A stretch of 64,000 nt of DNA, taken from contig NZ_BDCO01000002.1 in NCBI RefSeq assembly GCF_001613545.1, positions 682,001-746,000 of the forward strand, read 5' to 3'. The DNA is from Terrimicrobium sacchariphilum. GTDB lineage: Bacteria; Verrucomicrobiota; Verrucomicrobiia; Chthoniobacterales; Terrimicrobiaceae. The notes beneath the pieces were generated by a model. That model made no database searches and was not told the origin of the DNA. It saw only the letters and a program-made list of their open reading frames with translations. The translations under genes and the position numbers were made by a program. Numbering within the stretch: the first letter of the stretch is position 1; each line of letters begins with the position of its first letter. Of this stretch, positions 23,343 to 60,838 are shown one piece after another.

Positions 23343-23343
23343 T

Positions 23344-27621: not shown

Positions 27622-27664
27622 AAACGCCCCATTTTCCTCTCTCGGCAGGAATTTTCCTTGCAAA

Positions 27665-27678
27665 ATCACACGATTGAT
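27665..27678. promoter_or_regulatory. LacI-type operator, site 6
   Basis: ATCACACGATTGAT lies in the 87-bp gap between cassette proteins A and D, 30 bp before D. TTGCAA at 27658-27663 precedes it, as at site 1. The 14 bp are identical to site 8 before the alginate-lyase-type gene. It implies that D has its own regulated promoter. Confidence 0.65.
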
Positions 27679-27708
27679 TATCTATTGCAATCAAGCACTT
27701 GGTGAGCG

Positions 27709-28383
27709 ATGCTTTCTTCCCCCCACATGTCTTCTTCTCTTTCCAAATCGGCGGTTTTCCGTCGGCGAGCGGCAGGCTTCACATTGATCGAACTGCTGTC
27801 GGTGATGGCGATCATTTCGATCCTTGCGGTAACGACGCTGCCTGCGATCCGTGGCACGCTCGATGGCGTAACGATCAGCGGAGCAGCTGGGGTGGTCGAA
27901 TCAGAGCTCTCCTATGCCCGGCAGGTCGCCATGAGTCGGAATCTCCCTGTCGAGGTTCGGTTTTATAAGCACGATGACGGCAATGGCCTGGCCTGGCGTG
28001 CCGTGGCCTCGGTGATACCATCCTCTGTCAGCGGTGCGACCGGGGACGAGTGGCTGAGCCGGGGCAAGGTGCTTCCGGGAAATGTCATTGCTGACGATGC
28101 CCAGGAATATTCCACCCTTATCTCGCTGGCTGGCTCGGCGTCGACGAACGCAGGTCCCTGGACGGCGACGGAGTCGGCCTCCGCGCCTGGCATCCTGCGC
28201 GGCAAGTCCTATGTGGGATTCCGGTTCCGCCCGGATGGCTCGATCAATCTGCCCAATGGCCAGCCATGGTGCCTGACGCTGCGCAGCTCCACCAGCCGCC
28301 AGTCCGGATCTGCCCCGGCTGACAACTACGTATCCATCGTCCTCGATTCTCTGACCGGGCGCACGATGTCCTACCAACCCTGA
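27709..28383 (+). CDS. Verru_Chthon cassette protein D (cassette 1), GspH/FimT-like pseudopilin
   Basis: A 224-residue protein; an ATG at 27727 is an alternative start. The prepilin site is RAAG-FTLIELLSVMAIISI (Gly before the cut, Glu5 present), followed by SGAAGVVESELSYARQVAMSRNLPVEVRFY, a pattern typical of GspH/FimT (the helix plus 'A-R-x-x-A-x-x-x-x' segment). SYVGFRFRPDGSINLP is matched in the second copy by WSFRFRPDGSANVP. Unlike the copy in cassette 2, which overlaps A by 4 nt, this gene is separated from A by 87 bp containing an operator. Confidence 0.85.
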   Translation: MLSSPHMSSSLSKSAVFRRRAAGFTLIELLSVMAIISILAVTTLPAIRGTLDGVTISGAAGVVESELSYARQVAMSRNLPVEVRFYKHDDGNGLAWRAVASVIPSSVSGATGDEWLSRGKVLPGNVIADDAQEYSTLISLAGSASTNAGPWTATESASAPGILRGKSYVGFRFRPDGSINLPNGQPWCLTLRSSTSRQSGSAPADNYVSIVLDSLTGRTMSYQP

Positions 28384-38795: not shown

Positions 38796-39779
38796 TTACA
38801 GCTTAGCCAGGAATGTCCTGCGCGCGTATCGGGTCGTCGCAGTCGCGTCGCCGGCTGCGATCAGATCGCGGAGTTCAGATTGGCGGGTTTCCGTCAGGAG
38901 GGCTTCCACGTTCTGAAGGAATGCCACGCTTTCCCGCACGGCGGCAGCACCGTCCTCCCGATAGGGATATTGATCCATCGAGTACCAGCCTGCATAGCCG
39001 GTCTCTCGCAACCAATGCAGCAGCTCGACGTATTCAACCCAATGTACCGATCCCACGATCATATCGTCGTCCCATGACCGATAGTTATCATTGAAGTGCA
39101 TGTGGAAGAGCTTCTCTCCGTGATGCTGGAGCAGGACCGCGGATTCCGCCACGTTCTCCCCGGCCATGAAAGCGTGGCCGACGTCAATACATACTCCCAC
39201 ATTGGCGAGACCGGTTTCCTTCGCCATCAGCAGGGTATCGGCTGCCCGGGCCTGGAAGGAGAAGTTTCGGGGTTCCTTGGGCTTGTATTCCAAGGCGAAG
39301 CGAATCTCCGGGAATTCGGAGGCGATCAAGTGAATGTTTTCCGCGAGATAGGCGCGTTGGGAGCGGTAATCCGCCGTGAGCGGGTAGTCGTAACCGTCCT
39401 GCCCGAGCCAGAGATTAATCAAGGGGCAACCAATCTGCCTCGCGATGCGAGCCACCGACCGGCACTCCTCCAGCGCCGCGCGGCGGGTCTCGGCGGATTT
39501 GGCCGAGAGGCTCCCCAAACCCCATCGTCTTTGTGAAAACAGATCCGGGATGATCGAGACGCACGCCAGACCGGCGTCGTTGAGCCAGCCATCGATCTCA
39601 CCGGCGTTGGCCTCGGTGATATCCCAGGTGCCGACGAGTTCTATCCCCTCGATGCCGGGTATCGCCGCAGCCTGATGGATCATTTCCAATTTGGGAACGA
39701 CTTCCTTGTAGCCGCTGGGTAGAAAGCGATCACAGGTATTGCCGAGATTTCCCAGGATGACGGAATAACGATTTTTCAT
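38796..39779 (-). CDS. sugar phosphate isomerase/epimerase, xylose-isomerase-like TIM barrel
   Basis: About 327 residues from the ATG at 39779, which overlaps the stop of the upstream GH78 gene as ATGA. The barrel shows IEGIELVGTWDI, CPLINLWLGQDGYDYP, IRFALEYKPKEPRN (metal Glu), GVCIDVGHAFMAGE (Asp/His) and LFHMHFNDNYRSWDDDM (His), the usual metal-site pattern of the AP_endonuc_2 fold. No signal peptide. Last gene of the eight-gene minus-strand operon, downstream of a rhamnosidase, so an aldose/ketose isomerase for L-rhamnose or another released sugar is a fair guess. Confidence 0.82.
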   Translation of the reverse strand: MKNRYSVILGNLGNTCDRFLPSGYKEVVPKLEMIHQAAAIPGIEGIELVGTWDITEANAGEIDGWLNDAGLACVSIIPDLFSQRRWGLGSLSAKSAETRRAALEECRSVARIARQIGCPLINLWLGQDGYDYPLTADYRSQRAYLAENIHLIASEFPEIRFALEYKPKEPRNFSFQARAADTLLMAKETGLANVGVCIDVGHAFMAGENVAESAVLLQHHGEKLFHMHFNDNYRSWDDDMIVGSVHWVEYVELLHWLRETGYAGWYSMDQYPYREDGAAAVRESVAFLQNVEALLTETRQSELRDLIAAGDATATTRYARRTFLAKL

Positions 39780-42520
39780 GAAAGTTGCCTCACTCCCTTG
39801 GGAGCTTCGATGGAAGAAAGAACCTTGCGACCATCCCTGTGCCAACTGATGCGGATCGGGCCGTCCGCTGTGGGCAGCGCACCATCAACCTTGCGCACCA
39901 TGGAGGGCGGCTGAGGGTGAAAGCGGAACTCTTTCATTCCGACTCCCACCGGAACGATTCCCAGGAGGTACTTGCGGAAATACTTGAGGATGTAAGTGGA
40001 GAATGGATGGCATCGACTCCGGGTGGGGAATCGCTTGTTTTCATGTTCAGGAAAGTGTTCCCAAGCCGTCTTGTCCCCGGCCTCGATCATCTGGCTCCAT
40101 TTCCGAAGGATCGTCGTAAAGATCGCCTCTGTCTCGCCATGGAGGTCGAGGAACTCGAGGACGTAAAACAGGCCCATGGGACTCCCGATGGGGAGTAAGT
40201 CGCCTTCCTCCTTTGTCAGACGCTGGAGCAGACGTTTTCTCCATGCCTGTGATCCGACCCCGTAATAAGCCAGAGCAGCATTACTGGCCGCGCTGCTAAC
40301 CCTTGAGATCGAACCATCCTGATGGATGCTGTCGGCGTAGGCATCCCGCTGCGGGACCCAAAATCTGCGATGAATGGACTCCCTCAACCGACGTGCCGCA
40401 TCGAGCCAGAGCCGAGCTTGTGCCGGGCTGCCAGCCAACGCCGCGCCTGCCTCCAGGGCCCCGACAAAGAGTGCCTGCTCGGCGGAGACAAAGGGACGCC
40501 CGATATCATCACGGTCCGGGTGCCAGTCAATAATATGCCAGGGTTCCTCATCCGCTGGCCAAAGCATCAAACCTCCCGGCTCGATCATCTGTAATGACTC
40601 ATCCAGCCCTCGCGCAACCTGGGGAAAGACGGTCTCAAGAAATCCCTGGTCGCCCGTATGCTCGTAGAATTCCCGACAAAGCAGAATCCAGTGAAAACTG
40701 AATGCAGGGATGCGGTTATCCCATGCGCTCGGAGTATGCGAGCGGACCAGGCCCGGGTACTGTGGATCGCGGCCATATTGCTCGATCGTATTCCGCAGCA
40801 GCGGGATGTTTCGCATGGTGACGAGATCCGACATGGCGCCCAGGCGATTGTCGAAATTCCAGTTCACCGCCTCATATGTCGGACAATCGGTCAGCGTGTC
40901 GTCGGTCGATGAAATCAGTGTCTGCTCGCAGAGCGCGTAAATCGCATTGAGCATGCTGTTGTCGGACCGAAACGCCCCCTGGGGAAGGTTGCCGCAGTTG
41001 GCGGACAGCATCTCCACAGACGCGAGAGCGACGGAGTGCTCCCCTTGATGGTGAATGATCAGGTACCTGCCGCCATAGGCGAAAAAGCTCTCAAAGGATT
41101 GCCACCCATCGTGAAGCTCGTAGCGCAGCGAGTTGTTAACCGGACCGGGCCAGTTCAACGTCAAAGGAGCTCCTTGATCGATCGCCTCAACCAAGGAAAA
41201 GATCAGCGTGCTGCCTTTGTGTCCGAAGCACTTGAATGCGAGCCATCCGTTTTGCACGGCACCCAGGTCCACGATCAGGCGGATGGCGGTATTGCCGACA
41301 GCCGGAAGCAGTTTCCATCCGAGGTTGGTCCGCAGAAAGGAGTTGCTCTTCTTTTCCAATGTCTCTGCGTTGGCAACCAGATCATGAAAGTTCGCCCCCG
41401 GGGAGGTGTGCCGTGAATCCATCCTGGGAAGCGCCCCTGCGGCTATTCTCCTGGAAAGATCCTTCCCAAGACGCTTGCCGCATCTTTCGACTTCCTCCCG
41501 CGTCGTAGGGATCACCTGAAAGCCTCCGGCTCCAAACGGGTTCCGGACCGAGAGAGGTTTCGGAGCAAACGCTGCGAGGTGAGTTTCGGAAAAGTGATCA
41601 TTCCCATGCACGCCCACGAGGCGGTTGGCGCCTTTCTTCAGGTTCAGCAATACCTTGGGGACGCCCGGCTCATCGCGAGTCCATCCAGAGGAAACTCCGA
41701 TCAACCGGTCCTCAAGATACCACCTCGCTCCACCCGGAGCGGCCAGCCAGGCGATTGTCTGGTCTTCCTCCGAGATCAGGTCGGTCACAATGTACGCAGG
41801 AGTATCGAAGATATTGCAACGGCGCGCTTGATCCGGCGGCACCAGATAGGGCTTGGTGAGGAAACTGCAGATAAACTCCGGCAGCTTCACGACCTCGTGC
41901 GCCACGATCCTCTGCGGAACGAGAGGATACCGCGACGCCTGACGCACGGGGCGAGGAATCAGCCTGCACTCTTTGGAAACAACCTGGGCCGCCTCCCATC
42001 GGGAGCTCCCACGCTGTTGGGAGATGTCCTCGATGTTCGGCATGATCCAGCGTCGTACGGTTCGGCGTTTACGGCGGGCATCTCTCTGCACCAGAGTCTT
42101 TTCATCGCTCGCGATGTTTGCTTCGGGCAGTTGAACCTCAAATATCAGTCCCGCCTCGCCAAGGCTGTAGTTCATCGTGCCCGAGCCGAGGCTCAACACC
42201 AGAATCTCGAGCATGTTCTCTCCCGCCACCAACCACTGGCCGATATCGTAGGCGTCCACCATTCTCTCTCCCGGCGGAGATTTGGCCGGACCATGACCGA
42301 GGACGACGCCATTGAGCCAGACCTGATAATAGGCGTCGGCGGTGATCTTCAACGATGATGCACCGGGGATCTGGGCGCGAAGCCATTCCTTCGCCCCCAG
42401 TCGGAAAGCTCTTTTTGCCCGGAGATAATAATGATCGGAGAGACGGTCGCTGGTATCCCATATCCACCGCGCAGCTTTTGAGAACAGCTCCGGCGTCTCC
42501 TTGACGAGTGCTTCCTTCAT
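39776..42520 (-). CDS. alpha-L-rhamnosidase-like glycoside hydrolase, GH78
   Basis: About 914 residues from the ATG at 42520, which has GAGGA about 11 nt upstream; a GTG at 42538 would overlap the upstream stop. The N-terminal part has the GH78 sugar-binding sandwich (ARWIWDTSD, LKITADAYYQVWLNGVVLGHGPAK). The catalytic (alpha/alpha)6 barrel carries DTLTDCPTYEAVNWNFDNRLGAMSD near residue 545-570, equivalent to the general-acid motif, and PTRSRCHPFSTYILKYF near 845. C-terminal sandwich present. It differs considerably from the other GH78 protein at 6.6-9.0 kb. No signal peptide seen. Confidence 0.83.
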   Translation of the reverse strand: MKEALVKETPELFSKAARWIWDTSDRLSDHYYLRAKRAFRLGAKEWLRAQIPGASSLKITADAYYQVWLNGVVLGHGPAKSPPGERMVDAYDIGQWLVAGENMLEILVLSLGSGTMNYSLGEAGLIFEVQLPEANIASDEKTLVQRDARRKRRTVRRWIMPNIEDISQQRGSSRWEAAQVVSKECRLIPRPVRQASRYPLVPQRIVAHEVVKLPEFICSFLTKPYLVPPDQARRCNIFDTPAYIVTDLISEEDQTIAWLAAPGGARWYLEDRLIGVSSGWTRDEPGVPKVLLNLKKGANRLVGVHGNDHFSETHLAAFAPKPLSVRNPFGAGGFQVIPTTREEVERCGKRLGKDLSRRIAAGALPRMDSRHTSPGANFHDLVANAETLEKKSNSFLRTNLGWKLLPAVGNTAIRLIVDLGAVQNGWLAFKCFGHKGSTLIFSLVEAIDQGAPLTLNWPGPVNNSLRYELHDGWQSFESFFAYGGRYLIIHHQGEHSVALASVEMLSANCGNLPQGAFRSDNSMLNAIYALCEQTLISSTDDTLTDCPTYEAVNWNFDNRLGAMSDLVTMRNIPLLRNTIEQYGRDPQYPGLVRSHTPSAWDNRIPAFSFHWILLCREFYEHTGDQGFLETVFPQVARGLDESLQMIEPGGLMLWPADEEPWHIIDWHPDRDDIGRPFVSAEQALFVGALEAGAALAGSPAQARLWLDAARRLRESIHRRFWVPQRDAYADSIHQDGSISRVSSAASNAALAYYGVGSQAWRKRLLQRLTKEEGDLLPIGSPMGLFYVLEFLDLHGETEAIFTTILRKWSQMIEAGDKTAWEHFPEHENKRFPTRSRCHPFSTYILKYFRKYLLGIVPVGVGMKEFRFHPQPPSMVRKVDGALPTADGPIRISWHRDGRKVLSSIEAPKGVRQLS

Positions 42521-42534
42521 CGAGCTATGGTTCC

Positions 42535-43644
42535 TCACCTTTTCGCAGCTTCCCCCGAGATGCAGGAAAGCAGGGCATCCGCGTAAAGCTTGTGCCCAAA
42601 ATCATTGGGATGATTGACCCCGTTTCCCGTCAAGCTCCAGAATCCCTTGCGGTCCACCAGGAAGGTCCACGTCGTACGCACATCGCAGACGGCAACGCCT
42701 TTTCCCTTCAGCCGCTGCAAGGCTTTCGGATAAGTCTCCCGGATCTCGGGATTGCTCAGATTCCAGTCGGGGTTCGGAGTCATGCCATTGATGATGACAA
42801 ATTCCGTTTCCGGAGAATCACGGCGGATCGTGCTGATGATGGAATGGATATTCTGGCTGAAATCCTCGGCCTTCAGGCTGGCGGAGCCGTCGTTCATGCC
42901 GAAGCCGATGATCACCAGGTCCGGCTTTTCCGCTGCCACGGAGGCCGCCTGCGCCACCCCATAGGGCGTCGACTCGCCACCCTTGGAGTGATTGGTCACA
43001 CTCACGGTCGAGCCTGTTTTGTGCCCGAGCATGTCGGCGAGGCGGGTGAAATAGGGAGGTTCCCGGAAGGCATCCGACCCGGCGGAAATGCTATCACCGA
43101 GAATGGCGAGGGATACCGGCTTCCCCGCCTTGAGCTTCTCCTGCAGTTTTGGCAAAAGCGCGCTCTGATCTTCCGGCGGAGCCGGCGACCACGTCTCGTC
43201 TGTCTGGTAATCGAAACAAAGCTGCCTCTCGGGGAGGAACGCCCCGGGGGCATAGAGGAGATACTTTTTTCCATCCTTGTACCATCCGATGGCATTGCCG
43301 TTATTGGACTCGGGAAACAGCTCGGCCTCCTCCAGGCAAGGAAGACTCTCGGAACCGATGTACTCGACTCGATTTCCCGAAATCTGAAAATCCGAGACGG
43401 AATAGTCGCGGCTGCCATCGCCGGAATAAATCCGGAGCACTTTCTTTCCCGAGAGAGCCAGCATTCCGACCGGATGTCCTCCACCCGTGGGCCGGACAAA
43501 GGCCACGGGCTCTCCACGTCTCTGGCCTCCTTGCTTCCACACGGCCTCAACCACTTCGTCGGCGGCGTGTGCCACGCCTCCAACATTCACGCCCGCCGCC
43601 AAAATGACGGCGAATGACATAGATCTCAACATGCCTGGATTCAT
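42535..43644 (-). CDS. secreted SGNH/GDSL-type esterase
   Basis: A 369-residue protein with a signal peptide (SFAVILAAGVNVGGVAHAA). The first half is a beta-rich domain of about 150 residues; the second is an SGNH hydrolase with block I LGDSISAG (Ser near 185), block III GFGMND near 246 and block V NHPNDFGH near 345. Such enzymes remove acetyl or other acyl groups from polysaccharides, e.g. rhamnogalacturonan. It starts 1 nt after the pseudopilin gene ends and is followed directly by the rhamnosidase, so deacetylation of a rhamnose-containing glycan is likely. Confidence 0.82.
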   Translation of the reverse strand: MNPGMLRSMSFAVILAAGVNVGGVAHAADEVVEAVWKQGGQRRGEPVAFVRPTGGGHPVGMLALSGKKVLRIYSGDGSRDYSVSDFQISGNRVEYIGSESLPCLEEAELFPESNNGNAIGWYKDGKKYLLYAPGAFLPERQLCFDYQTDETWSPAPPEDQSALLPKLQEKLKAGKPVSLAILGDSISAGSDAFREPPYFTRLADMLGHKTGSTVSVTNHSKGGESTPYGVAQAASVAAEKPDLVIIGFGMNDGSASLKAEDFSQNIHSIISTIRRDSPETEFVIINGMTPNPDWNLSNPEIRETYPKALQRLKGKGVAVCDVRTTWTFLVDRKGFWSLTGNGVNHPNDFGHKLYADALLSCISGEAAKR

Positions 43645-43645
43645 A

Positions 43646-44284
43646 CTAGGGTTCCCAATAGGTCGGACGGTTGCTCAGGTTCTCGCCGCTGGCCTCGACA
43701 TGGCCGTCTGCGAAAAGAAAATTCGAGAATACTCCATGAGCGTGATGGGCAAACTCTGGCATCCACGGCGTCTTTCCTGTTCCTGAAGCGGATATGCTGG
43801 CGATCGGCCATTCACAATAAACATGCACCTCGTAAAGCAGGATCTTTTTGGAGGGATTATTGACTTGGGCCATCTTCAGGCCACCAGTTTCTGGAGCTTT
43901 CAATAACTCGCTGTTACCGCGATAGCTGAAGGAACCCGGGGCTTCGGTGTGATTCGGGCAGTGCATGATGGTATGCGCCGCCAGGGAGGCCCGATCCGAT
44001 CCCTGCTGCCAGTTCACGTAAGGAGCGACCTGGCTCCAGAACGAGGAGCTTACATTGCCGTCGACACCAATGTCATGAGTGGGCAGGCGGCCATCATTGT
44101 CAGCCGCATAGAGACCGAAACCGACTCCGGCCTGCTTGAGGTTATTCGCACAGGCAGCGGCCCGTGCATTGTCCCTGACCTTGAAAGCAACAGGAATGAT
44201 CAGAATGGAAAGCGCGCCAATAATGCCGAGAGTCACGAGCAACTCGATCAGCGTAAAGGCCGATGACCTGGGGGAGGCACCCAT
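43646..44284 (-). CDS. type II secretion-type pseudopilin with C-terminal ADGHV box
   Basis: A 212-residue protein. The prepilin N-terminus is SSA-FTLIELLVTLGIIGALSIL with Glu5 and Ala before the cleavage site. ACANNLKQAGVGFGLYAADNDGRLP follows, and the C-terminus has HHAHGVFSNFLFADGHVEA, the box common in the abundant Planctomycetes/Verrucomicrobia G-type pseudopilins. It is embedded in a catabolic operon, 12 nt after an upstream secreted-protein gene and 1 nt before an esterase gene. It may form or join a pseudopilus that is made only when this glycan is used. Confidence 0.85.
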   Translation of the reverse strand: MGASPRSSAFTLIELLVTLGIIGALSILIIPVAFKVRDNARAAACANNLKQAGVGFGLYAADNDGRLPTHDIGVDGNVSSSFWSQVAPYVNWQQGSDRASLAAHTIMHCPNHTEAPGSFSYRGNSELLKAPETGGLKMAQVNNPSKKILLYEVHVYCEWPIASISASGTGKTPWMPEFAHHAHGVFSNFLFADGHVEASGENLSNRPTYWEP

Positions 44285-44296
44285 AAGGTGGAAATA

Positions 44297-44932
44297 TTAG
44301 TGATTTACTACGACGGAAATGAACGAGTCTGGAGAGGGGCCGCCTTGGGGATCTGTGCTCGTGAGCACCGCCCAATAGCCGCTGTCGCTCTGGATGTCCG
44401 TGCCCTCGGCGTGGCCGATGCGTAGATAGAACTCCTCCACTCCTGCTCCATCGATCTCCTTCTCACAGACAAATTTCGAAATGATTTTCGCGTCCGTCCT
44501 GGTGCCAAGGTTTTCGATCTCTTCGATCGGAGTCCAGGTTTGTCCATCCAGGCTAAAAGAAACGGCGACCTTGTCGTCACCTTCCCCGCTCTTCGCTCCG
44601 TCGAGGATGATCTGAGCCAGGCCCAGCGTGACCTTTTTGGCGCTGTACCCCGGCGGCAGAGCCACTTTCCAGATCACCCAGCTGTCGGTGGATCCGGCAT
44701 CGGTCATGCACAGGCGATTGCCGTAGAGCAGGCTTACGCCCATGGCATCCCAGGCCAGGGTGTCGGGAGCGGTCGGTTCCGCGGAATAGATGGCGAGGGG
44801 CTTGGTGGCTGTACCCGACGACAACTCATCGCTGGAAAACTTGAGCTCCCGATCCAGGGTCAGGCCGCCGGCATATGCGCCGGGCAGCCCCAGGATGGCG
44901 GCCATGCAAACTGTCTGAAAATATCTGGGCAT
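44297..44932 (-). CDS. secreted protein of unknown function
   Basis: A 211-residue protein with a signal peptide (MAAILGLPGAYAG). The mature part is beta-rich (WVIWKVALPPGYSAKKVTLGLAQIIL, KVAVSFSLDGQTWTPIEEIENL, EEFYLRIGHAEG), like a discoidin/F5-8 or galactose-binding jelly roll. No catalytic motif. It lies 4 nt after the GH39 gene and 12 nt before the pseudopilin gene in the same operon. A glycan-binding accessory role is likely but unproven. Confidence 0.65.
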   Translation of the reverse strand: MPRYFQTVCMAAILGLPGAYAGGLTLDRELKFSSDELSSGTATKPLAIYSAEPTAPDTLAWDAMGVSLLYGNRLCMTDAGSTDSWVIWKVALPPGYSAKKVTLGLAQIILDGAKSGEGDDKVAVSFSLDGQTWTPIEEIENLGTRTDAKIISKFVCEKEIDGAGVEEFYLRIGHAEGTDIQSDSGYWAVLTSTDPQGGPSPDSFISVVVNH

Positions 44933-44936
44933 ATCT

Positions 44937-46610
44937 TTATTTGGTTTCGAGGGGTTTCAAATCGATCGTGAGGAAAGCCACGCTGCATTTGGGAAGGAGG
45001 AGGGAATACTTATTGCCGCTCCCCGACAGGGATTTTTCCTCAACAGTCTGGAGACGGCTGCCTTTATCGACGTTTGCGGTCTTTTGGTAGATCGTCCAGG
45101 AGTTCGAGAGATTCTCACTGACCATCTGGGTCGAGACCTTGTCGGCCGCCATTCTCCCGCCGGGGCGGGATATCAGTTGGTCGAAATCCAGCTCCACCCG
45201 CAGGTCCTTCCCCAGATTTTCCGGGGGGCTCGTTTCCGGGATCTCAGCGGCATAGTTCCACAGCATGATCGTCAGCTTGTTCCTGTCGAGAGACGCGACG
45301 CCGTCGATCGCCTTGTTGGCGCTCGTCAAGGTGACACGTTCTCCAGACAACCGGGCTGCCATGTCCAGGATGTGAGCCGGGGTTTTGGGCCACGGCTGGC
45401 CGAAGACCTGAGGATTCACAAACAAGGAAGGCCAGCCCCACCCATTCGCCGCCAAGCCCGACGTGTTGGCGAGTTGCAGATCCGTAGTGACGAGGAAGAT
45501 CGCTTCGTCGATCTCCTGCTCAGCCATCAGCTTGAGAAACGCAGCGCTCCATGCCGAGGCGATATTCGTGGCGTTCACATATCCGCAGGGGTCATTCTGC
45601 GTGTGATAGCTCGCCCCCCACTCCGTGATTTGAAACGGAATTCCCGGGAACGTCGCATCTCTCACGGACTTTGCCGCCTTCAGCATTTTGACAAAGGACG
45701 GGAAATTCATCGGATACTCGCCATTCAGGGACGATACGTTTCCATAGTAATGCACCCCAATGAAGTCGACGCGCAGCTTGTCCTTTGCCGCGTCTTTCAG
45801 GAACCGGTCCAGCCATTTGAAATCGCCGTACTTTTGAGTGAAAGCCCAGGCCAGAGCTGGGCCGCCGATCACGACGCGCAAACCTGGATACTCCTTTTCA
45901 AACTGCTCCGCCGCTTTCACGACGTTGGTATAGGTTTCGTAGTAGAGGCCGTAGAGCGCGGCGCTTCCCGCAGGCGTCTTCTCCGGAGTCAGTCGGCGTG
46001 CGAAGACGCCGCCGATGTCCGGTTCGTTGCCGATCTCGAAACGGGCGTTGAGGAAACCTTGATCCAGGAGGATGTACTTATAAAGCGCCCGCCAGTAAGC
46101 CCTCAGTTTTTGCCAGTCTCCGTTGAAATAAACGACCTGCCCCTCCTGCTGACCCAGGACAGAGACTCGCTCCTCGACATCCTTCGCTGTCGCCTGAAGT
46201 TCGCCAGGTACGCTTTGTCCGAAAATGATATGCGGTACGGCGCCCAGCTCCTTGCAGGTATTAAGATTCTGGTCGAGCCTCTCTGTTCCACCAGTGATGC
46301 GAAAGGTTCCATCCGGCTCAAAGATGCCGGTGACGCCATCCACATTGATACAGCGTATCGTCTTGACCCCAAATCGCTTGAGTTCCGCCGTCGTTTCAGC
46401 ATTCGGATCGAACTCCCATCCGACGGCACCGGCAAGCTTCTTGAAGTGACTTAGCGAGTCATACTTTCCATTATACTCGCGGTCTTTCAAAATCGTGACC
46501 TGGACCGTTTTGCCCGCACCCTGAGGGGCTACCTCAGAGTGCGCAATGAAGCTCAGATTCATCATCGTCAAGAGAGCGCCCAGACAAAGGCTCCTGGCCA
46601 TTTTCTTCAT
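44937..46610 (-). CDS. GH39-like secreted glycoside hydrolase
   Basis: About 557 residues from the ATG at 46610 (a TTG at 46631 is possible). Signal peptide: MARSLCLGALLTMMNLSFIAHSE. A clan GH-A TIM barrel is visible: TIRCINVDG, FEIGNEPDIGG with the acid/base Glu near residue 196, DFIGVHYYGN, and PFQITEWGASYH with the nucleophile Glu near 330. A C-terminal beta-sandwich follows. GH39 enzymes include beta-xylosidases and alpha-L-iduronidases; I cannot say which. It follows the PEP-CTERM gene by about 22 nt in the operon. Confidence 0.75.
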   Translation of the reverse strand: MKKMARSLCLGALLTMMNLSFIAHSEVAPQGAGKTVQVTILKDREYNGKYDSLSHFKKLAGAVGWEFDPNAETTAELKRFGVKTIRCINVDGVTGIFEPDGTFRITGGTERLDQNLNTCKELGAVPHIIFGQSVPGELQATAKDVEERVSVLGQQEGQVVYFNGDWQKLRAYWRALYKYILLDQGFLNARFEIGNEPDIGGVFARRLTPEKTPAGSAALYGLYYETYTNVVKAAEQFEKEYPGLRVVIGGPALAWAFTQKYGDFKWLDRFLKDAAKDKLRVDFIGVHYYGNVSSLNGEYPMNFPSFVKMLKAAKSVRDATFPGIPFQITEWGASYHTQNDPCGYVNATNIASAWSAAFLKLMAEQEIDEAIFLVTTDLQLANTSGLAANGWGWPSLFVNPQVFGQPWPKTPAHILDMAARLSGERVTLTSANKAIDGVASLDRNKLTIMLWNYAAEIPETSPPENLGKDLRVELDFDQLISRPGGRMAADKVSTQMVSENLSNSWTIYQKTANVDKGSRLQTVEEKSLSGSGNKYSLLLPKCSVAFLTIDLKPLETK

Positions 46611-46632
46611 ATCGCGCCGGAAAATGATCAAC

Positions 46633-47370
46633 TCAAAGGCTCCGCTCGCACGAAGGACGCCGGAATCGACGACGCATGATGACTACGGAAAGGAGACTCA
46701 ATCCCAGCAATACGGAAGTCCCGGGTTCCGGCACGGCCGTCACATCGACCACGATGTTGTCGAATCTCGCATGACCGTTCAGCCCGACCTGCTGGAGAAC
46801 AAGCTGGTTGAAGGTATCATACTGCAGCCCGGGGCTGGTGCTGATGACGAGATCGCCGCCCTGATAGCCTCGCAAGGTCGTTCCATCCCAGGTCAGGGAA
46901 GCTCCCACCAGAGGCTGGCCTCCCGACTCTGAAGGCGCGTTGCCGCTCACCAGCAGCGATGTGTCCGCTCCCCCGGTGACGGTGAACAGTTCATATTTAT
47001 ATCCGGCAGCGGCCTGGCGAATGGTGTAGGCATATCCGTTTCCGCCATTGTCGAGCAGCTTGACTCCGAGCTGAAGAGTGAAGTCGTTCACACCCCATTC
47101 CCATCCGTAATCAAAATTGATCGTGAATGCGCTCACGATGGATGAGGAAAAGACAGTCTGGAGCTGGCTGTTTCCGCTGGTTGCCTCGGCCACATTGGAA
47201 CCGTTAAAGTCTATGACGCTCCAGCTTCCTGAAACCACATTCCAGCCATCGAGGGTTCCGCTTGAGAAGTCGTCATTAACGACGACTGCGGCCTGTGCTG
47301 CGCCAGAGAAGGCAAGGACGGTTCCGCTTACGAAGCAGGCGATGGTTTTTACATAAGTACGCGTTTTCAT
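46633..47370 (-). CDS. PEP-CTERM sorted protein with concanavalin-like domain
   Basis: A 245-residue protein with a signal peptide (IACFVSGTVLAFSGAAQAA). The body, NDDFSSGTLDGWNVVSGSWSV ... HARFDNIVVDVT, is the pattern of a LamG/concanavalin-like beta-sandwich. The C-terminus is a PEP-CTERM signal: VPEPGTSVLLGLSLLSVVIMRRRFRR. It begins 7 nt after the mannosidase stop. Probably anchored to, or released through, the outer surface after exosortase processing, perhaps as a glycan-binding component of this degradation set. Confidence 0.82.
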   Translation of the reverse strand: MKTRTYVKTIACFVSGTVLAFSGAAQAAVVVNDDFSSGTLDGWNVVSGSWSVIDFNGSNVAEATSGNSQLQTVFSSSIVSAFTINFDYGWEWGVNDFTLQLGVKLLDNGGNGYAYTIRQAAAGYKYELFTVTGGADTSLLVSGNAPSESGGQPLVGASLTWDGTTLRGYQGGDLVISTSPGLQYDTFNQLVLQQVGLNGHARFDNIVVDVTAVPEPGTSVLLGLSLLSVVIMRRRFRRPSCERSL

Positions 47371-47377
47371 ATAGTTA

Positions 47378-49954
47378 TTATTGGAGGGTATTTTGTTTGG
47401 AGGACTTTATGAAATCTGGCTTGTCTTTCGCCCGGACCAGCTCCCAGGCGGCTATCTCATGCGGCAGCATTTTCGTGAGTTCAAAATCCGCCCCGAAGCA
47501 CCGCCCCGTAATGCGGGAGATGGGTGCATCCGACAGATTTTGCAGCCTGATGATCACAGTGCTTCCGCTTCCCTTTGTGACTCCCAGGAGCCGGATGCAG
47601 GGCTGATCGAGGTGGAACATGGAGTCCCTCGCCGGGAGCTCGGCTTCAGCGCGGGCCGCAAATGCCGGCACTGTAAGGGAAACAAGCGGGGTCTGCAGCT
47701 CGTCGGACCATCGTGCCAGTGAGTCCACGGTTGGCGTCAGCATGGCGCGAAAGACGTGCTCCCCGAGATCGGCGCACGGCTGCCATGGGCGCTCATGCCG
47801 GGCATAGTGGACATCGCTCGCGTACCGCGAAGTGCGTGCGATGGTGGCTCGGAGTTCGTCTTTCGTGGTATCAAAGCCGTAGAGAACATCGCTGGCGAAA
47901 CCGATCCGGTTCTCGCCACTCCCGGCGCGCACCCACAGATTCCCGGAAACTTCCCCGCAAGCAGCACGAGCCACCTCGCCGCCCGGCACGGCATACTCTG
48001 CCCAGCCGTTGGCACCGGTCGCAGGCACGACCAGCTTCATGCGCACGCCGCGGTCGGCCAGGAGAGCCCGTCCGCTGATCTGAATGGCATCAGTCCTACC
48101 GTCGATCTGAATGGTGAGTTCGATCGTGGATCGGACATCCTTGCCCGCAAAACGAACCCACGTGGCAAACCGAAGAGGGCCGCTCTCCACCACCTCCGTC
48201 TCAACGATCGTCAGTCGCTCGATCTCTTTGGTGAGAAGCCAGGAGTCCTGCTCCTCATTCATCCCGCCCCATGCACCCCAGGTATCCTCGTAAAGACGGA
48301 TCTGCATTCCCCCCGGCAGCCAGGCATTTCCCTCCCGCGTGAAATGGACGGCATCTTCACCGACGACGGCATCGCAGCGGAAACGAGGGGCTGCGGGACT
48401 CATCTCCGGCGCTTCCACGTTCGCACCCGGATCGATACCCATCTGCAGCAGTGTCCAGCCAAGGGGAGGGACGTCCACCGGCACCACGACCCGGCGTCTC
48501 CACGGGATATGGCGGAAGGAATCATGCTCCTCAGCGATGATCTGATGCGGCAGGGCCTTTCCTTGCGCGGCGTCGACGACGACGAGGGGAATTTCCTCGG
48601 TCCTGCCCTCGTAGGGCCAGAGCGGTCGATGGTCGAGGGAAACCTCCACCTCGACCTGAGAGCGGATCGCCCAGGGGTGGGGGTTCCATACGATCACTGG
48701 CTGCGGCTGGGCATGATCGGGGGGAACAGTCCATGCTCCGCTCCTGGTGTCGATGCGCCTCGCGAGTTGAAGAAGCGCGGATGTCTCCTCATCCTGCGCC
48801 TTCGTCGCGGCAAAACCAAGCTGAGCGAGTTGATCAGCATAGGCTCGTTCAATGCTGCTCCCCGGCAGGATGTCATGAAAGGCGTTGAAAAGCACAGCGT
48901 CCCAGGCATCCTTCAACCCCGTGAATCCGTCCGATGCCTCATCCGGGAGCCCGCAAAATGTCGAGGCGCGTTCGGCCCGCATGAGCTGCGCCTCGGTACG
49001 GCGGTAGGCGTATTTAAAACGAGCTACAGAAGCACTGCAGCCACGCAGGCAGAAGTTTAGCTCCCCTTCCACCGTCGGGATGGAATCTTCACCTCGCCTG
49101 TCCAGTTCCGCTCTTAACTCTCCAAAAAAGCTGTGCAGGCCGGAATGCCTTACCTCCACCTCGGGATGTTGACTGATCCACTCACGTATCTCCCGCAAGT
49201 GCCGCCGGGATGGGCCGCCCCCGTGATTGCCCAATCCGTAGAACAGCGCCGCCGTCTCGGCACCCTCCTCCTCCGCCCGCTCCAGGCAGGCATCGAGCCG
49301 CTCCCCAATGCCGGCTCGCTCGCTCGCATACCAGCCATCATGAGGACGGTAAGCCAGGATGCGCGCTCCACTGCGGGACCTCCACCAAAAGGCCTGTGAA
49401 GGAAGAGGGAATATCGCGGCTTGGGGCCGGGTGAATGCAAAGTTCTCCATGCCAGCGGCCTTCAATATCTCGGGAAGACCGGCGGAATGCCCGAAAGAGT
49501 CCGCCGCCCACGCCGTCCTCACCTCGACTCCAAAGGTCCGTCGAAAGTACTCCTTGCCGCGAATAAACTGACGAAGCATGGCCTCGGTGGAGGGGAGATT
49601 CGTATCGGGTTGAATCCAGTTGCCGCCGACAACATCCCACCGCCCCTCCTGAATCAGCCCGGCGATATCTGCGAAGAGATCCGGGGCATGCTGCTCGATG
49701 TAGCTGTAGATCGCAGCCTCCCCGCGAATAAAACGAAACTCCGGAAATTCCCTCAACAGCCCAACCATCGCCCGGCAGGTTGCGATTCCTTCATTCATTC
49801 CCTCGCGCCGATCCCACAGCCAGACGGGATCGAGATGCGCGTTGCCGATGAGGTGCAGCGTCAGCTTCACCGGAGACGCATCTTCGCAATCCGTCGTCGC
49901 GAGAGAATCGCACGATGAAGACACGTCGTTGACGGCCAGGGGGGAGGACAACAT
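47378..49954 (-). CDS. alpha-mannosidase, GH38 family
   Basis: An 858-residue protein. The GH38 zinc-site motif is GNAHLDPVW near residue 37-45, and the nucleophile Asp is in AADSFGHSAGLPEIL near residue 152. GGNWIQPDTNLPS and FHDILPGSSIERAY are also typical of the family. The C-terminal half is the expected all-beta region. No signal peptide, so it acts on imported or intracellular mannosides. It is the first gene of an eight-gene operon; a 28-bp palindrome ends 18 bp before its start codon. Confidence 0.88.
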   Translation of the reverse strand: MLSSPLAVNDVSSSCDSLATTDCEDASPVKLTLHLIGNAHLDPVWLWDRREGMNEGIATCRAMVGLLREFPEFRFIRGEAAIYSYIEQHAPDLFADIAGLIQEGRWDVVGGNWIQPDTNLPSTEAMLRQFIRGKEYFRRTFGVEVRTAWAADSFGHSAGLPEILKAAGMENFAFTRPQAAIFPLPSQAFWWRSRSGARILAYRPHDGWYASERAGIGERLDACLERAEEEGAETAALFYGLGNHGGGPSRRHLREIREWISQHPEVEVRHSGLHSFFGELRAELDRRGEDSIPTVEGELNFCLRGCSASVARFKYAYRRTEAQLMRAERASTFCGLPDEASDGFTGLKDAWDAVLFNAFHDILPGSSIERAYADQLAQLGFAATKAQDEETSALLQLARRIDTRSGAWTVPPDHAQPQPVIVWNPHPWAIRSQVEVEVSLDHRPLWPYEGRTEEIPLVVVDAAQGKALPHQIIAEEHDSFRHIPWRRRVVVPVDVPPLGWTLLQMGIDPGANVEAPEMSPAAPRFRCDAVVGEDAVHFTREGNAWLPGGMQIRLYEDTWGAWGGMNEEQDSWLLTKEIERLTIVETEVVESGPLRFATWVRFAGKDVRSTIELTIQIDGRTDAIQISGRALLADRGVRMKLVVPATGANGWAEYAVPGGEVARAACGEVSGNLWVRAGSGENRIGFASDVLYGFDTTKDELRATIARTSRYASDVHYARHERPWQPCADLGEHVFRAMLTPTVDSLARWSDELQTPLVSLTVPAFAARAEAELPARDSMFHLDQPCIRLLGVTKGSGSTVIIRLQNLSDAPISRITGRCFGADFELTKMLPHEIAAWELVRAKDKPDFIKSSKQNTLQ

Positions 49955-49971
49955 GGAGCGAATGCTGATCT

Positions 49972-49999
49972 ATTTTGGTATTATTGTAAATACCAAAAT
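49972..49999. promoter_or_regulatory. 28-bp palindromic operator before the eight-gene operon
   Basis: The arms ATTTTGGTATT (49972-49982) and AATACCAAAAT (49989-49999) are perfectly complementary around a 6-bp centre. The site lies 17 bp before the mannosidase start and 215 bp before the divergent GntR/LacI-type regulator. It is the obvious binding site for that regulator, although a role as an RNA hairpin cannot be excluded. Confidence 0.7.
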
Positions 50000-50214: not shown

Positions 50215-51345
50215 ATGCCCTTCAACGATCAAAGTCTGCTGCCCGCCTACGCACGGGTGTCCAAAGAGCTGCAGTCGCGGCTTTCCCGGATGGCCGTCGG
50301 GGCTCGAATGCCATCGGAGAGAGAACTTTGCATCGAGATGGGCGTCAGCCGAGTGACCTTGCGCAAGGCCATGGAACCATTTCACCGGGGTGGCTTCCTG
50401 GAAACCCGCCGGGGCGGCGGCACCTGGCTCGCCAAGGAGGTCACCGCTCCGCGCAACGACGCGGAGACTCCGGCGAGGCTCATCGGACTCGTCGTTCCGT
50501 CTGTAGCCATCAGCCTGCCAGCCCGCATTGTCCAAGGCGCGGAAGCCCTGGCCGCAGAGCGGGATTTTCACGTGGCACTGGCCCATGACCACGGCGACAT
50601 GGACTACCAGATCAAGCAGCTCGCCCGCATGGTCGACGGCAATCTCGCAGGGATCGCGGTATTCCCCGATGTGGCAAATCTCGAGCGTCCGGTATTTCGG
50701 GACCTGATCAAGCGCATCAAGGCAAAGTCGATCCCTCTCGTCATGATCGATCGTTATCTGCCCGATATCGACACACCCAGCGTCCTTTCCGACAACGTCG
50801 CGGGGGCCTACGCGGCCACCGAGCACATGATTCTCAAGGGCCATCGCCGCCTGGCCCTCCTCTCCTTTGGCGAACGTTCCGGCGTGAGTGATTATGAGCG
50901 TCGCAAAGGATTCCTCAATGCCCTGCAGGATTATGGGATCAGGGCAAACCCCATTCATGAAGCCGCGCTAGGTGGAGTCAACCACGAGGAACTGGCCAGG
51001 AAGGTCGTCGGCGAATGGCTTGCAGCCGATGCCGCCCGAGGCGCGGTCCGCCCGCAGTTCGACGGGATATTCTGCATGCAGGATAACATGGCCTACGGAG
51101 CCTTCCTGGCGCTGCGAGAGGCGGGATTCTCCGTACCCAAGGACGTCGCCCTGGTGGGGTATGACAATCTTAACCGCGAGATTTTCCAGGCTGCCGGGCT
51201 GAATCTCACGAGCATCGATCAGCCGGCGGAAAAAATCGGTCGCCGGGCGGCAGCCCTCCTGATTGATCAGATCGAGGAACGCTCTGCAGCCCCCAAGCCC
51301 CGCCACATTTTGCTGCGACCGCAGTTGATCGTCCGGGACACCTGA
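50215..51345 (+). CDS. GntR-type DNA-binding / LacI-type sensor regulator
   Basis: A 376-residue hybrid repressor. Residues about 8-78 form a GntR winged helix (RMPSERELCIEMGVSRVTLRKAMEPFHRGGFLETRRGGGTWLA). From about residue 85 a LacI/periplasmic-binding-protein sensor follows (LIGLVVPSVAISLPARIVQGAEALA, VFPDVAN, DGIFCMQDNMAYGAFLALREAG, LVGYDNLNREIF). This is the architecture of the arabinose repressor AraR. It is divergent from the eight-gene mannosidase-rhamnosidase operon and probably represses it through the 28-bp palindrome until a sugar ligand binds. The ligand is unknown. Confidence 0.88.
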   Translation: MPFNDQSLLPAYARVSKELQSRLSRMAVGARMPSERELCIEMGVSRVTLRKAMEPFHRGGFLETRRGGGTWLAKEVTAPRNDAETPARLIGLVVPSVAISLPARIVQGAEALAAERDFHVALAHDHGDMDYQIKQLARMVDGNLAGIAVFPDVANLERPVFRDLIKRIKAKSIPLVMIDRYLPDIDTPSVLSDNVAGAYAATEHMILKGHRRLALLSFGERSGVSDYERRKGFLNALQDYGIRANPIHEAALGGVNHEELARKVVGEWLAADAARGAVRPQFDGIFCMQDNMAYGAFLALREAGFSVPKDVALVGYDNLNREIFQAAGLNLTSIDQPAEKIGRRAAALLIDQIEERSAAPKPRHILLRPQLIVRDT

Positions 51346-51397: not shown

Positions 51398-52102
51398 GTG
51401 CAACATTTCTTCGACCGCATCCAGGAAAAATCCCGAGACTTCTCGAAGCCGACGGTACGTATCGTCGCCTTTGGCGACAGCGTCACACAAGGCGTGATGG
51501 AACAACATGTCCTCGACAGCTCCAGTGTCTATCACCGGCAGGTGCAGATGAAGCTGGAGGATATTTACCCGACCGCCAGCTTTTCAACCTTCAACGCGGG
51601 AGTCTCCGGTGACAATGTGACGAATGCTCTCAAGCGCCTGGAGCGGGATGTCTTGAGCCAGAGGCCCGACCTTGTCCTGATTGCCTTTGGACTAAACGAC
51701 TCCCTCAAGGGAGAACCGGGACTCGCCGAGTTTTCAGCAGGTTTGTCCGAGATGGTCCGCACCATTCGCAAGGAGACCGAGGCCGACATCATGCTATTGA
51801 CTCCTCCTTTCATGGCCCGGAAGCCGAGCTTCCGCATCCATCCGGACCATCTCGGCATGGCGGATGCGATCATCACAATCCAGAGCACAGGCGTGCTGGA
51901 GCGGTATGCAGATGTCATTCGCGCCATCGCCCGCGAGCACAACATTCCGCTGGCAGATATTCACAAGGAATGGGCGCGGTTGGCGGCCAGCGGGCTGGAC
52001 ACCGACGTGTGGCTCATCAATGGACTCAACCATCCCGATCACCGGGGGCATCGACTTGCCGCCCATCTGGTGTTTCATCACCTGCTCGCCTGCCGCCCCT
52101 GA
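51398..52102 (+). CDS. SGNH/GDSL hydrolase, cytoplasmic
   Basis: A 234-residue protein starting with GTG at 51398, 52 bp after the regulator. Block I is FGDSVTQG (Ser near residue 28), block II has GVSGDNV, block III is FGLNDS, and block V is LNHPDHRGH, so the full Ser-Gly-Asn-His set is present. No signal peptide is seen. Carbohydrate esterases of this type remove acetyl groups. It is probably co-transcribed with the regulator and processes acylated oligosaccharides after uptake. Confidence 0.82.
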   Translation: MQHFFDRIQEKSRDFSKPTVRIVAFGDSVTQGVMEQHVLDSSSVYHRQVQMKLEDIYPTASFSTFNAGVSGDNVTNALKRLERDVLSQRPDLVLIAFGLNDSLKGEPGLAEFSAGLSEMVRTIRKETEADIMLLTPPFMARKPSFRIHPDHLGMADAIITIQSTGVLERYADVIRAIAREHNIPLADIHKEWARLAASGLDTDVWLINGLNHPDHRGHRLAAHLVFHHLLACRP

Positions 52103-52340: not shown

Positions 52341-53642
52341 TTACTCAAAGGTCACGCCATGGGCGTGGCGGGTGACAAGATCGAGCTGATCCGCGTTTTG
52401 GACCCGGCGGCCGCCCAGCACGAAGTTCTGAAAGCGCACGTTTTCGATGGCATGGTCCGCGTCGTATCCCGCGATCACGCTGAGCGTGTAGCCGACGTTG
52501 GGCGCGATCTGCGTGACCGTGATGTTTCGCAGGAGGAGGTTGCGGGCGTGTCCTCGCTCGGCATCCCGGTTCCAGCGGGACCAGACCAGCCGGAAGTCTA
52601 CGAGCTTGTCGTAGTGGTGCTCGACGCGGATGTTCTCCCACGTGATGTTTTCCACCAGGGCGCGGTCGCCGCTGTGAATGCCGAAGACCGAGCCGAAGTT
52701 GTGCACCGCGAGGACGTCGATGTCGTCAAACCGGACATTGCGTATGGACTCGGTACTCGTCTCGTAGCCGATCTCCATGGCGGACCCGCCGTGAATGTTG
52801 TAAAACGCACAGGAGGACACGACGACATCCTCCACGGGGTTGTTCCAGTTTTCGTGATTCTGCCCCGGGTTGTCCTTCAGGGCCTTGATGGCGATGTTGT
52901 CGTCGCCGTTGTGCAGCATGCAGCCCGAGATGCGGACTTCCCGGGAGCCGACGATGTCGATGCCGTCGGAGCTCACATCGTCGGCGATCTGCCGGACGCC
53001 GCGAACTCTTGCGTTTTCGCAATTGGCGAGCACGACCATCCAACTCGTCGGCCCCAGCATCAGCAGGTTCTCCACGGAGCAATCGCGGCAGTTTTCGAAG
53101 ACGATCGACTTTAGCCGCCTGCCCTCGTGCCGGGGCCAGAAGCTGCCCTCGAAAATACCGTAGCCGCCAACGCGCACGCCCGAGCAGCCCTGCGCCCGTA
53201 TCGCCCCGCTCACCACCGCTCCGGGCTCGATCCAGCAGATCTCTCCATCATTGAGGGTGATCATTCCCGCCTCATGGATGCGCCCGGCCTCAAACCTCTT
53301 CACATGGGCTCCGGCAGGTGCTTCCTGTGCCGGAGGGAGAGCGTAAAGATACAGCAGGGGAAGACCTGCGACCTCCACTTGCAGGAGTGTCGGGCCGGGG
53401 ATCTCAAAACGCGCTTTCCGGTCCGTGATCTCGACGGTGATTCCGTGGCGGAGCGGACGCACCAGGACGCTCTTTACCGGCTGGGCAAAGGTGATCTCGA
53501 TGGCGACGGAGCCATCGCATTCGAACGACGCATGGTGCGCCGCCGTGTGGTGCAGGACATCCAGCGATTCGCCGGAGGTCGTGATTTGAAAGACATCGGA
53601 ACGAGGAAGTTCCTTGGGGTAGCGGTGAGGGAGCGGGGTCAT
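52341..53642 (-). CDS. GH28-like right-handed beta-helix glycoside hydrolase
   Basis: A 433-residue protein. After a beta-sandwich-like N-terminal part of about 110 residues comes a parallel beta-helix with repeated strand-turn units (GVRVGGYGIFEGS, SIVFENCRDCSVENLLMLG, NARVRGVRQIA). Two acidic motifs match the polygalacturonase pattern: SDGIDIVGS near residue 224 and HNGDDNIAIK near residue 243. The usual Gly-His-Gly and Arg-Ile-Lys motifs are not apparent, so this is a divergent GH28/GH49-type member. No signal peptide. Its start overlaps the GH116 stop by 4 nt, so the two are translated together. Confidence 0.75.
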   Translation of the reverse strand: MTPLPHRYPKELPRSDVFQITTSGESLDVLHHTAAHHASFECDGSVAIEITFAQPVKSVLVRPLRHGITVEITDRKARFEIPGPTLLQVEVAGLPLLYLYALPPAQEAPAGAHVKRFEAGRIHEAGMITLNDGEICWIEPGAVVSGAIRAQGCSGVRVGGYGIFEGSFWPRHEGRRLKSIVFENCRDCSVENLLMLGPTSWMVVLANCENARVRGVRQIADDVSSDGIDIVGSREVRISGCMLHNGDDNIAIKALKDNPGQNHENWNNPVEDVVVSSCAFYNIHGGSAMEIGYETSTESIRNVRFDDIDVLAVHNFGSVFGIHSGDRALVENITWENIRVEHHYDKLVDFRLVWSRWNRDAERGHARNLLLRNITVTQIAPNVGYTLSVIAGYDADHAIENVRFQNFVLGGRRVQNADQLDLVTRHAHGVTFE

Positions 53643-56362: not shown

Positions 56363-56977
56363 TCAGGGCCGCCACGTTGTGACGTTGCCGTTCACGGCAT
56401 CCATCACAAGGGTGACATAATTTGCCGGCGGCTTGGCCAGGTTGTCTCCGTCGCGTACGTCATGCAGCGTGAGAAACCAGGGGGTGCCGGGGAAGGGGGG
56501 GACATTGGCGCTCCCGTCGGGCCGGAACCGGAAAGACCACGCCTCGTACGAGGTGCCGACGCCGGAGACCGGCGGTTTCGTTTCGGAGCCCCAGGCCTTT
56601 TTCAGCGAGGGATCGGCGAGGGTGGAGAGGGTCGTGCCGGAGTCGATGAGGATCTGGGAGGGGAGTTTTTTGAGGCGGCTGACTGCGATGGCCTGGCCGT
56701 CCGTGTTATAAGTGAAAAGCTGAAATGCGCCGAGCCGCTCCTCGGTGCCCGGCGCGGAGGGGTCTTTGAAGCGGATGAGCCGTACCTCGACCTCCTGGTT
56801 CTGCGCGATGGCGGTTTGCCGGGCCAGCGAGAGCATGGAGGTGAGTTCGTTTTCAGCCGAGGAGAGAGCCGATGCTCGCTGGATGGAGCTGATCGCGGGG
56901 ACGGCCAGGGTGGCCAGCAGGCCGATGAGCGCCATGACGACGAGCAACTCGATGAGGCTGAAGGCTCGGCTTCTCAT
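56363..56977 (-). CDS. Verru_Chthon cassette protein D (cassette 2), GspH/FimT-like pseudopilin
   Basis: About 204 residues from the ATG at 56977, which overlaps the stop of protein A as ATGA. The longer upstream frame is inside protein A and is not credible. The prepilin site is SRA-FSLIELLVVMALIGLLATL (Glu5 present, Ala before the cut), followed by SSAENELTSMLSLARQTAIAQNQEVEVRLI, the GspH/FimT pattern. FRFRPDGSANVP matches the copy in cassette 1. It ends the B-C-A-D unit; a gap of about 138 bp with the 16-bp element separates it from GH116. Confidence 0.85.
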   Translation of the reverse strand: MRSRAFSLIELLVVMALIGLLATLAVPAISSIQRASALSSAENELTSMLSLARQTAIAQNQEVEVRLIRFKDPSAPGTEERLGAFQLFTYNTDGQAIAVSRLKKLPSQILIDSGTTLSTLADPSLKKAWGSETKPPVSGVGTSYEAWSFRFRPDGSANVPPFPGTPWFLTLHDVRDGDNLAKPPANYVTLVMDAVNGNVTTWRP

Positions 56978-60837: not shown

Positions 60838-60838
60838 A

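Follow-up and report, generated by a model that had tools for sequence, protein, structure and literature searches.

A conserved palindrome as the predicted operator of a GntR/LacI-type regulator beside a glycan-use operon of Terrimicrobium sacchariphilum

Introduction

How is a run of eight tightly spaced genes for carbohydrate metabolism and surface proteins controlled, and which substrate could it serve? This question is raised by a 64-kb stretch of the Terrimicrobium sacchariphilum genome (C2:682001-746000 of a 4.75-Mb genome in three contigs), here called the window, in which eight minus-strand open reading frames (ORFs), all present in the ORF list, lie at 38796-49954, divergent from a gene for a regulator that combines a GntR-type DNA-binding domain with a LacI-type sugar sensor. 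Between both stands a 28-bp palindrome, ATTTTGGTATT-ATTGTA-AATACCAAAAT (49972-49999), with perfect 11-bp arms and a 6-nt spacer. The eight genes form an operon for glycan use that is familiar in type but unusual in the layout of its operator. As the explanation that best accounts for the whole, and one that we hold with good confidence, the operon would be controlled locally by a dimer of the regulator, which would repress it from the palindrome and be released by a sugar.

The palindrome and its regulator

The palindrome is the sole perfect inverted repeat in the window with arms of at least 11 bp and a gap of at most 16 nt, and no such repeat appeared when the 260-bp intergenic region was shuffled 1000 times (first-order Markov). 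Thus, the initial annotation, which had placed a single perfect palindrome with 11-bp arms before the first gene, was right on this point, since no other repeat in the window matches its strength. Genome-wide, there is a single copy of the core TTGGTAT-N0-16-ATACCAA. The palindrome ends 17 nt from the ATG of the first gene, which encodes a glycoside hydrolase (GH) of family GH38, and 215 nt from the ATG of the regulator. A search of the same genome for a regulon found no second exact match, and at 3 mismatches the number of sites stayed near the control level, so a larger regulon in this genome was rejected.

The regulator contains a GntR helix-turn-helix (HTH) domain at residues 12-70 (PF00392, 39.4 bits against a cut-off of 27) followed by a LacI-type sugar-binding domain (PF13377, 106.9 against 26.5 bits). 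Its earlier description as AraR-like holds for this GntR/LacI architecture, but not for the operator, whose half-sites are spaced as GT-N12-AC instead of the GT-N4-AC of AraR. Scanning public genomes with the regulator alone retrieved two relatives independently of the palindrome, with identities of 62% (L124, a locus in Verrucomicrobia bacterium Tous-C9LFEB) and 60% (L125). A class-wide search, in which 4 of 384 genomes matched at E ≤ 1e-45, including the T. sacchariphilum genome and that of L124 (matched by sequence), added the genomes G607, with two regulators, and G496, with one; the regulator of a further genome, G273, is 43% identical in the search and 41% in the tree alignment. In a tree of 20 homologues, seven regulators from six genomes form one clade with 99/98 support, and its other members are 40-62% identical to the regulator of the window.

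A footprint beside the clade regulators

The pairing of regulator and palindrome is well supported by comparison across these genomes. In L124, TTTGGTAT-TAACAAAG-ATACCAAA overlaps the start codon of its own regulator, with arms and gap identical to TTTGGTAT-TATTGTAA-ATACCAAA in the window, and the exact 16-bp form occurs once in each of the two genomes, at these places. In G273, a site with changed outer bases, AGTGGTAC-N8-GTACCACT, lies about 50-80 nt upstream of the regulator. When eight genomes were searched with the pattern TGGTAY-N8-RTACCA, one site each was found in T. sacchariphilum, G273, and the genome of L124 and none in the other five, and all three sites stand before a clade regulator or its divergent operon. 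G607 and G496 each carry one perfect site of the form NNNNGTAY-N8-RTACNNNN before the start of a PEP-CTERM gene, at about 19 nt and about 52 nt, respectively, and the outer palindromes of these sites have perfect arms, 10 and 12 bp long. Moreover, the interval separating the second G607 regulator from a GH38 gene contains a degenerate copy, TGGTCT-N8-ATACCA, which lies about 10 nt ahead of the GH38 start.

Altogether, a perfect inverted repeat of the NNNNGTAY-N8-RTACNNNN form is found in the fetched locus of five of the six clade genomes. When gaps of 0-20 nt were allowed in the clade loci, the five sites that appeared all had a gap of 8, and the other 20 gaps gave none (first-order shuffle mean of 0.025 in 40 rounds). 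In 150 other loci (806,688 bases, many of them overlapping), the nine matches at gap 8 were all refetched copies of the window, L124, and G273 sites, and the other gaps gave two matches at gap 0 (one site present twice) and one at gap 16. The GTAY core was derived from the first sites, so that only G607 and G496 test the pattern afterwards, and of these two, G496 matches no more than the looser GTAY form. The GTAY core, the fixed gap, and the position together make the case for an operator, and the palindrome is most likely that of the divergent GntR/LacI-type regulator, as the initial annotation had suspected; its footprint in other genomes agrees with such a predicted role.

Outside the clade, the N8 site was found in none of 13 more distant homologues (L111-L123), and the palindromes before other GntR/LacI regulators of relatives have none in common with the site of the window. 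One of these homologues, the 30% identical L115 of genome G124, has a classical AraR-type site, TGTTGTAC/GTACAACA, with the palindrome ATGTTGTAC/GTACAACAT at 1372-1387, about 115 nt upstream; in this locus (L115, L131), a pseudopilin gene directly follows the regulator.

In the seven clade regulators and in L111, two residues are missing from the HTH domain, between its first helix and the strand that follows; the deletion is absent from eleven other homologues, and L123 does not cover the position (alignment of 20). Aligned to the AraR structure 4egy, the domain has 72 residues, compared to 74 in AraR. This deletion may be linked to the wider spacing, but the link is weakened because wide spacing also occurs outside the deletion clade: AAAGTTT-N10-AAACTTT stands before one orthologous GntR/LacI regulator in three congeners (G000, which is T. 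sacchariphilum, G001, and G002; loci L096, L070/L099, and L102), and this regulator lacks the deletion. L111 shares the deletion and has no visible palindrome.

The operon and its probable substrate

Table 1. Features of the T. sacchariphilum locus, with positions in the window.
Feature	Position	Strand	Basis
Proposed operator, 28-bp palindrome, core TTTGGTAT-N8-ATACCAAA at 49974-49997	49972..49999	.	Repeat search, comparative footprint
GH38 alpha-mannosidase, cytoplasmic (no signal peptide by eye)	47378..49954	-	Pfam, catalytic motifs compared with solved GH38 enzymes
PEP-CTERM (exosortase substrate) surface protein	46633..47370	-	PF07589, TIGR02595
Secreted GH39-like (clan A type) glycosidase	44937..46610	-	Sub-cut-off Pfam score, profile search
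Secreted protein, 211 aa, without family match	44297..44932	-	No profile match
Pseudopilin-like protein, N_methyl and partial DUF1559	43646..44284	-	Pfam, TIGR models
Secreted SGNH/GDSL esterase	42535..43644	-	PF13472
GH78-type alpha-L-rhamnosidase, cytoplasmic by eye	39776..42538	-	Pfam, acidic residues aligned to 2okx
Xylose-isomerase-like TIM-barrel protein, start ATG 39779	38796..39779	-	PF01261; best solved relative 3ktc
Divergent regulator, GntR winged HTH and LacI-type sugar sensor	50215..51345	+	Pfam, tree
Second SGNH esterase, 52 nt past the regulator	51398..52102	+	PF13472

Apart from the PEP-CTERM and prepilin motifs, the cell locations in Table 1 are by-eye readings of N-termini. 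When the likeliest start codons are taken, the intergenic gaps are 7, 22, 4, 12, 1, -4, and -4 nt; for the GH39-like gene, ATG 46610 is preferred over TTG 46631, and for the isomerase, ATG 39779, which overlaps the rhamnosidase stop by 4 nt, is more probable than the listed TTG 39845. The operon layout proposed at the outset, with eight minus-strand genes, gaps of at most 22 nt, and two 4-nt overlaps, is therefore upheld, and we infer from it a single transcript for the eight genes.

An alternative is that the eight genes form several transcription units and that control by the palindrome extends no further than the GH38 gene or the first few genes. The Shine-Dalgarno-like sequences are weak throughout, a promoter scan may miss the promoters of this phylum, and the sites in L125 and G607 are distributed across several transcription units. 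Nevertheless, the short gaps and overlaps argue against such a division, which seems quite unlikely, and promoter-like matches in the region are near background (7, against 4.4 in shuffled sequences, standard deviation (sd) 2.3). Terminator-like matches are also near expectation (16 against 12.4, sd 4.1), and neither count proves or excludes internal promoters.

The enzyme families point to mannose, rhamnose, and acyl esters. The GH38 protein scores 194.8 bits with PF01074 (cut-off 25), and its H-x-D, D-x-F-G, and F-H-D motifs align with those of solved alpha-mannosidases (metal, nucleophile). The GH78 protein reaches 102.3 bits with the six-hairpin domain PF17389 (cut-off 24.5) and conserves all residues aligned with D567, E572, D579, and E841 of Rhamnosidase B (2okx), which we take to be its active site. 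The GH39 assignment is supported only at the level of the family profile: the single sequence scores 22.9 against the Pfam cut-off of 26, whereas a six-sequence profile matches the GH39 enzyme 2bs9, a beta-xylosidase, at E 1.5e-13, and the NEP and TEW/TEY glutamates (acid/base and nucleophile) align with those of GH39 beta-xylosidases and are invariant in all six homologues. The isomerase was rejected as a recognised L-rhamnose isomerase, with scores far below the equivalog cut-offs (TIGR02635 (RhaI), 72 against 531 bits; TIGR02629, 36 against 647). No arabinose genes were recognised among the operon proteins by Pfam and TIGR models. A link to Psl through PslG, considered for its mannose, rhamnose, and GH39 content, was dropped, as this name is absent from the profile matches.

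A paralogous locus in the same genome (L065, 2509-10601; G000:C2:3536000-3554000) combines a LacI-type regulator, divergent from a GH2 beta-mannosidase, with a GH78, an isomerase (77% identical), and an SGNH esterase (63%). In G607, the GH38 gene is followed by genes for RhaT, two GH78, a major facilitator superfamily transporter, and a GH28. The joint occurrence of mannosidase, rhamnosidase, isomerase, and esterase twice in one genome, together with RhaT in G607, supports a rhamnose- and mannose-containing, acylated glycan as the putative substrate, and the theme first read from the gene content is retained on the basis of the enzyme families, the paralogous locus, and the G607 cluster. The second SGNH esterase beyond the regulator probably belongs to the system as well, because its 63% paralogue comes directly after the isomerase paralogue in L065. 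The intergenic region of L065 contains a 16-bp perfect palindrome, AAAGTTAC/GTAACTTT.

Contrary observations and other readings of the palindrome

Several observations weigh against a locally controlled glycan-use operon as set out here. The reversed control pattern has five matches in the same eight genomes, so that the evidence lies in where the sites stand relative to the regulator rather than in how many there are; when the GTAY core is not required, every gap yields 1-6 repeats with perfect 8-bp arms. The half-site in G496 deviates (TGATGTAT), and this site is about 6.4 kb away from the regulator gene. L125 lacks a perfect site and has degenerate copies near 123, 6054, and 9088, of which the second precedes a pseudopilin gene and the third a long gene without known family. 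An orthologous operon was not found, and the 57 relatives lack both the secreted protein and close GH39-like genes: among 58 genomes, the secreted protein was found in one, its own, and the GH39-like gene in five at E ≤ 0.001, with only its own match strong, while across 387 genomes of the phylum four, its own included, contain the GH39-like gene at E ≤ 1e-10. Operon-wide conservation was rejected on these counts, and the function of the operon is therefore not readable from conservation. Finally, the eight-gene operon has no transporter, no kinase, and no aldolase, and with an isomerase outside the recognised L-rhamnose isomerases, the initial idea of a full pathway is at most partly supported.

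Among the other readings of the palindrome, the most durable sees the operator in TTGT-AAAT-ACCAA, which lies within the palindrome, as a canonical AraR/HutC-type box (GT-N4-AC) that has gained a further half-site on the outside, so that the wide palindrome would be a by-product. The spacer contains TTGT at positions 3-6, on either strand, in three of the five perfect sites (window, L124, and G273) and in two of the three degenerate L125 sites, an inner GT-N4-AC is present in three of the five, and GntR regulators are reported to have additional half-sites at 7-12 nt from the centre (PMC4494728). However, the G607 and G496 sites have no TTGT there and yet keep perfect outer palindromes, and the TTGT pattern was noticed after the fact, so that we consider this box a possible but somewhat unlikely operator. 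Alternatively, the regulator could be an activator, or the palindrome could belong to another factor, since all of the evidence comes from sequence and the site in the window is distant from the regulator gene; this seems very unlikely, given that the site co-occurs with a clade regulator in five of six genomes and that positions beside or over a start codon suit a repressor. That the palindrome acts in the GH38 mRNA, as a 5'-leader hairpin that controls translation or termination, rather than as a DNA operator, is extremely unlikely, because the fold of the minus-strand RNA (11-bp stem, -15.2 kcal/mol over 71 nt, z -3.1) would be expected of any perfect palindrome, the GTAY core is kept while the outer pairs vary, the L124 site lies over the regulator ATG and others before different genes, no U-tract follows the hairpin, and the window has no Rfam match.

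Surface proteins and the genomic surroundings

The PEP-CTERM protein scores 22.5 bits with PF07589 (cut-off 20.7) and 21.4 with TIGR02595 (cut-off 16), and the genome encodes one exosortase (PF09721, 153 bits, G000 C2:146836). The prepilin motif of the pseudopilin is recognised by PF07963 (22.8 against 21.2 bits) and TIGR02532 (17.4 against 16.3). The structures modelled for the secreted protein and the PEP-CTERM protein, with mean predicted local distance difference test (pLDDT) values of 39.5 and 32.5, were not used. A PEP-CTERM gene is near the GH39-like gene in three of six loci (window, L086, and L088), and a pseudopilin gene is in a tight run with it in two of six (window and L088), a neighbourhood on which no statistical claim is based, as such genes are common in these genomes.

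Genome G363 (L086, L087, and L088) has three GH39-like paralogues, with a GntR/LacI regulator (33-34% identical to that of the window), a PEP-CTERM gene, and a GH39-like gene in one locus, and a 718-aa protein, a GH39-like enzyme, and a pseudopilin with 4-nt overlaps in another. Long proteins of 940-1130 aa without Pfam family are encoded beside clade regulators in L155 (4344-7727 and 9120-12353) and L125 (1679-4957 and 6199-9018).

Polysaccharide-related genes abound across the window, and those at 1-38525 and 52341-56224 encode GH5, GH78, GH2, alginate lyase, GH28, GH116, two heparinase II/III-type proteins, and a polysaccharide deacetylase, with LacI regulators at 19370 and 30586. Two Verru_Chthon cassettes at 22182-28383 and 56363-61885, pseudopilin-like gene sets whose proteins A, C, and D score above the NCBIfam cut-offs, flank the sugar loci. 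No SusC/SusD pair, as in a Bacteroidetes-type polysaccharide utilization locus, was found among the 38 window ORFs scanned with Pfam, with smaller and overlapping ORFs outside the scan.

Proposed mechanism and significance

Gene order, catalytic residues, and the conserved predicted operator beside the clade regulators are read from the DNA itself, and the following steps would fit them. Without inducer, a dimer of the GntR/LacI-type regulator would sit on the 28-bp palindrome near the GH38 start and block transcription of the eight genes. An inducing sugar or oligosaccharide, probably containing rhamnose or mannose, would bind the LacI-like domain and release the regulator. Outside the cytoplasm, the SGNH esterase, the GH39-like enzyme, the PEP-CTERM protein, the secreted protein, and the pseudopilin could then bind, deacylate, and cut the glycan, whose products would be taken up by a transporter encoded elsewhere, and inside the cell, GH38, GH78, and the isomerase would complete the breakdown. 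We infer repression rather than activation here, as well as the inducer, the substrate, and the cell locations.

A broader, tentative proposal, which we think rather unlikely, is that a Verrucomicrobiota clade of GntR/LacI repressors reset its operator from GT-N4-AC to GT-N12-AC with the two-residue winged-helix deletion and switches on glycan-specific surface kits, made of an exosortase-anchored protein and a dedicated pseudopilin, plus glycosidases, so that each glycan locus would build its own pseudopilin-based surface or secretion device. Verrucomicrobiota genomes contain many pseudopilin and PEP-CTERM genes without known use, and here one of each lies in a sugar operon with a defined, comparatively supported operator; thus, one regulator and one sugar can ask whether such genes are glycan-specific tools. 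Moreover, the operator spacing in six genomes and the clade-wide HTH deletion offer a compact case for a change in GntR half-site spacing.

Comparison with known systems

Among the open-access papers searched, no title or abstract was found to describe this operon or the N8 operator. One of the closest likenesses is AraR of Bacillus subtilis, a local sugar regulator that also joins a GntR HTH to a LacI-type sensor and binds a palindromic, AT-rich operator near its target gene, given as At(T/A)tGTaCGTAcaa(A/T)T (PMC4218819). Here, in contrast, GT and AC are 12 nt apart instead of 4, the HTH is two residues shorter, and no arabinose genes were recognised in the operon. According to PMC4494728, GT and AC are 2-4 nt apart in the FadR and HutC subfamilies, the sites of the YtrA subfamily are long, and NanR, NagQ, and GabR recognise TGGTAT or ATACCA as direct repeats; the half-site letters TGGTAT are thus shared with the latter, but they are inverted here, with an 8-nt gap. 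YtrA regulators and BusR, whose site is GAC-N22-GTC (PMC8517857), resemble the present case in that a GntR HTH is paired with half-sites well away from the centre of the palindrome, and differ in their effector domains, a short C-terminal domain in YtrA and a coiled coil with RCK_C in BusR, which are not LacI-type. A wide GntR operator therefore has precedent, and the difference here is the GntR/LacI chimera.

For the pseudopilin, the nearest parallel is found in Verruconatronum alginivorum, where a pseudopilin is among 17 genes over-expressed on alginate and the genome is reported to have 67 homologues of a cluster pseudopilin (PMC13274419). Both cases concern Verrucomicrobiota pseudopilins that accompany polysaccharide-degrading genes, over-expressed together in V. 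alginivorum; there, the glycan is alginate and the gene cluster another, and the over-expressed pseudopilin is one of three genes outside two clusters. By analogy, the V. alginivorum case suits the idea that pseudopilins such as that of T. sacchariphilum may be induced by glycans.

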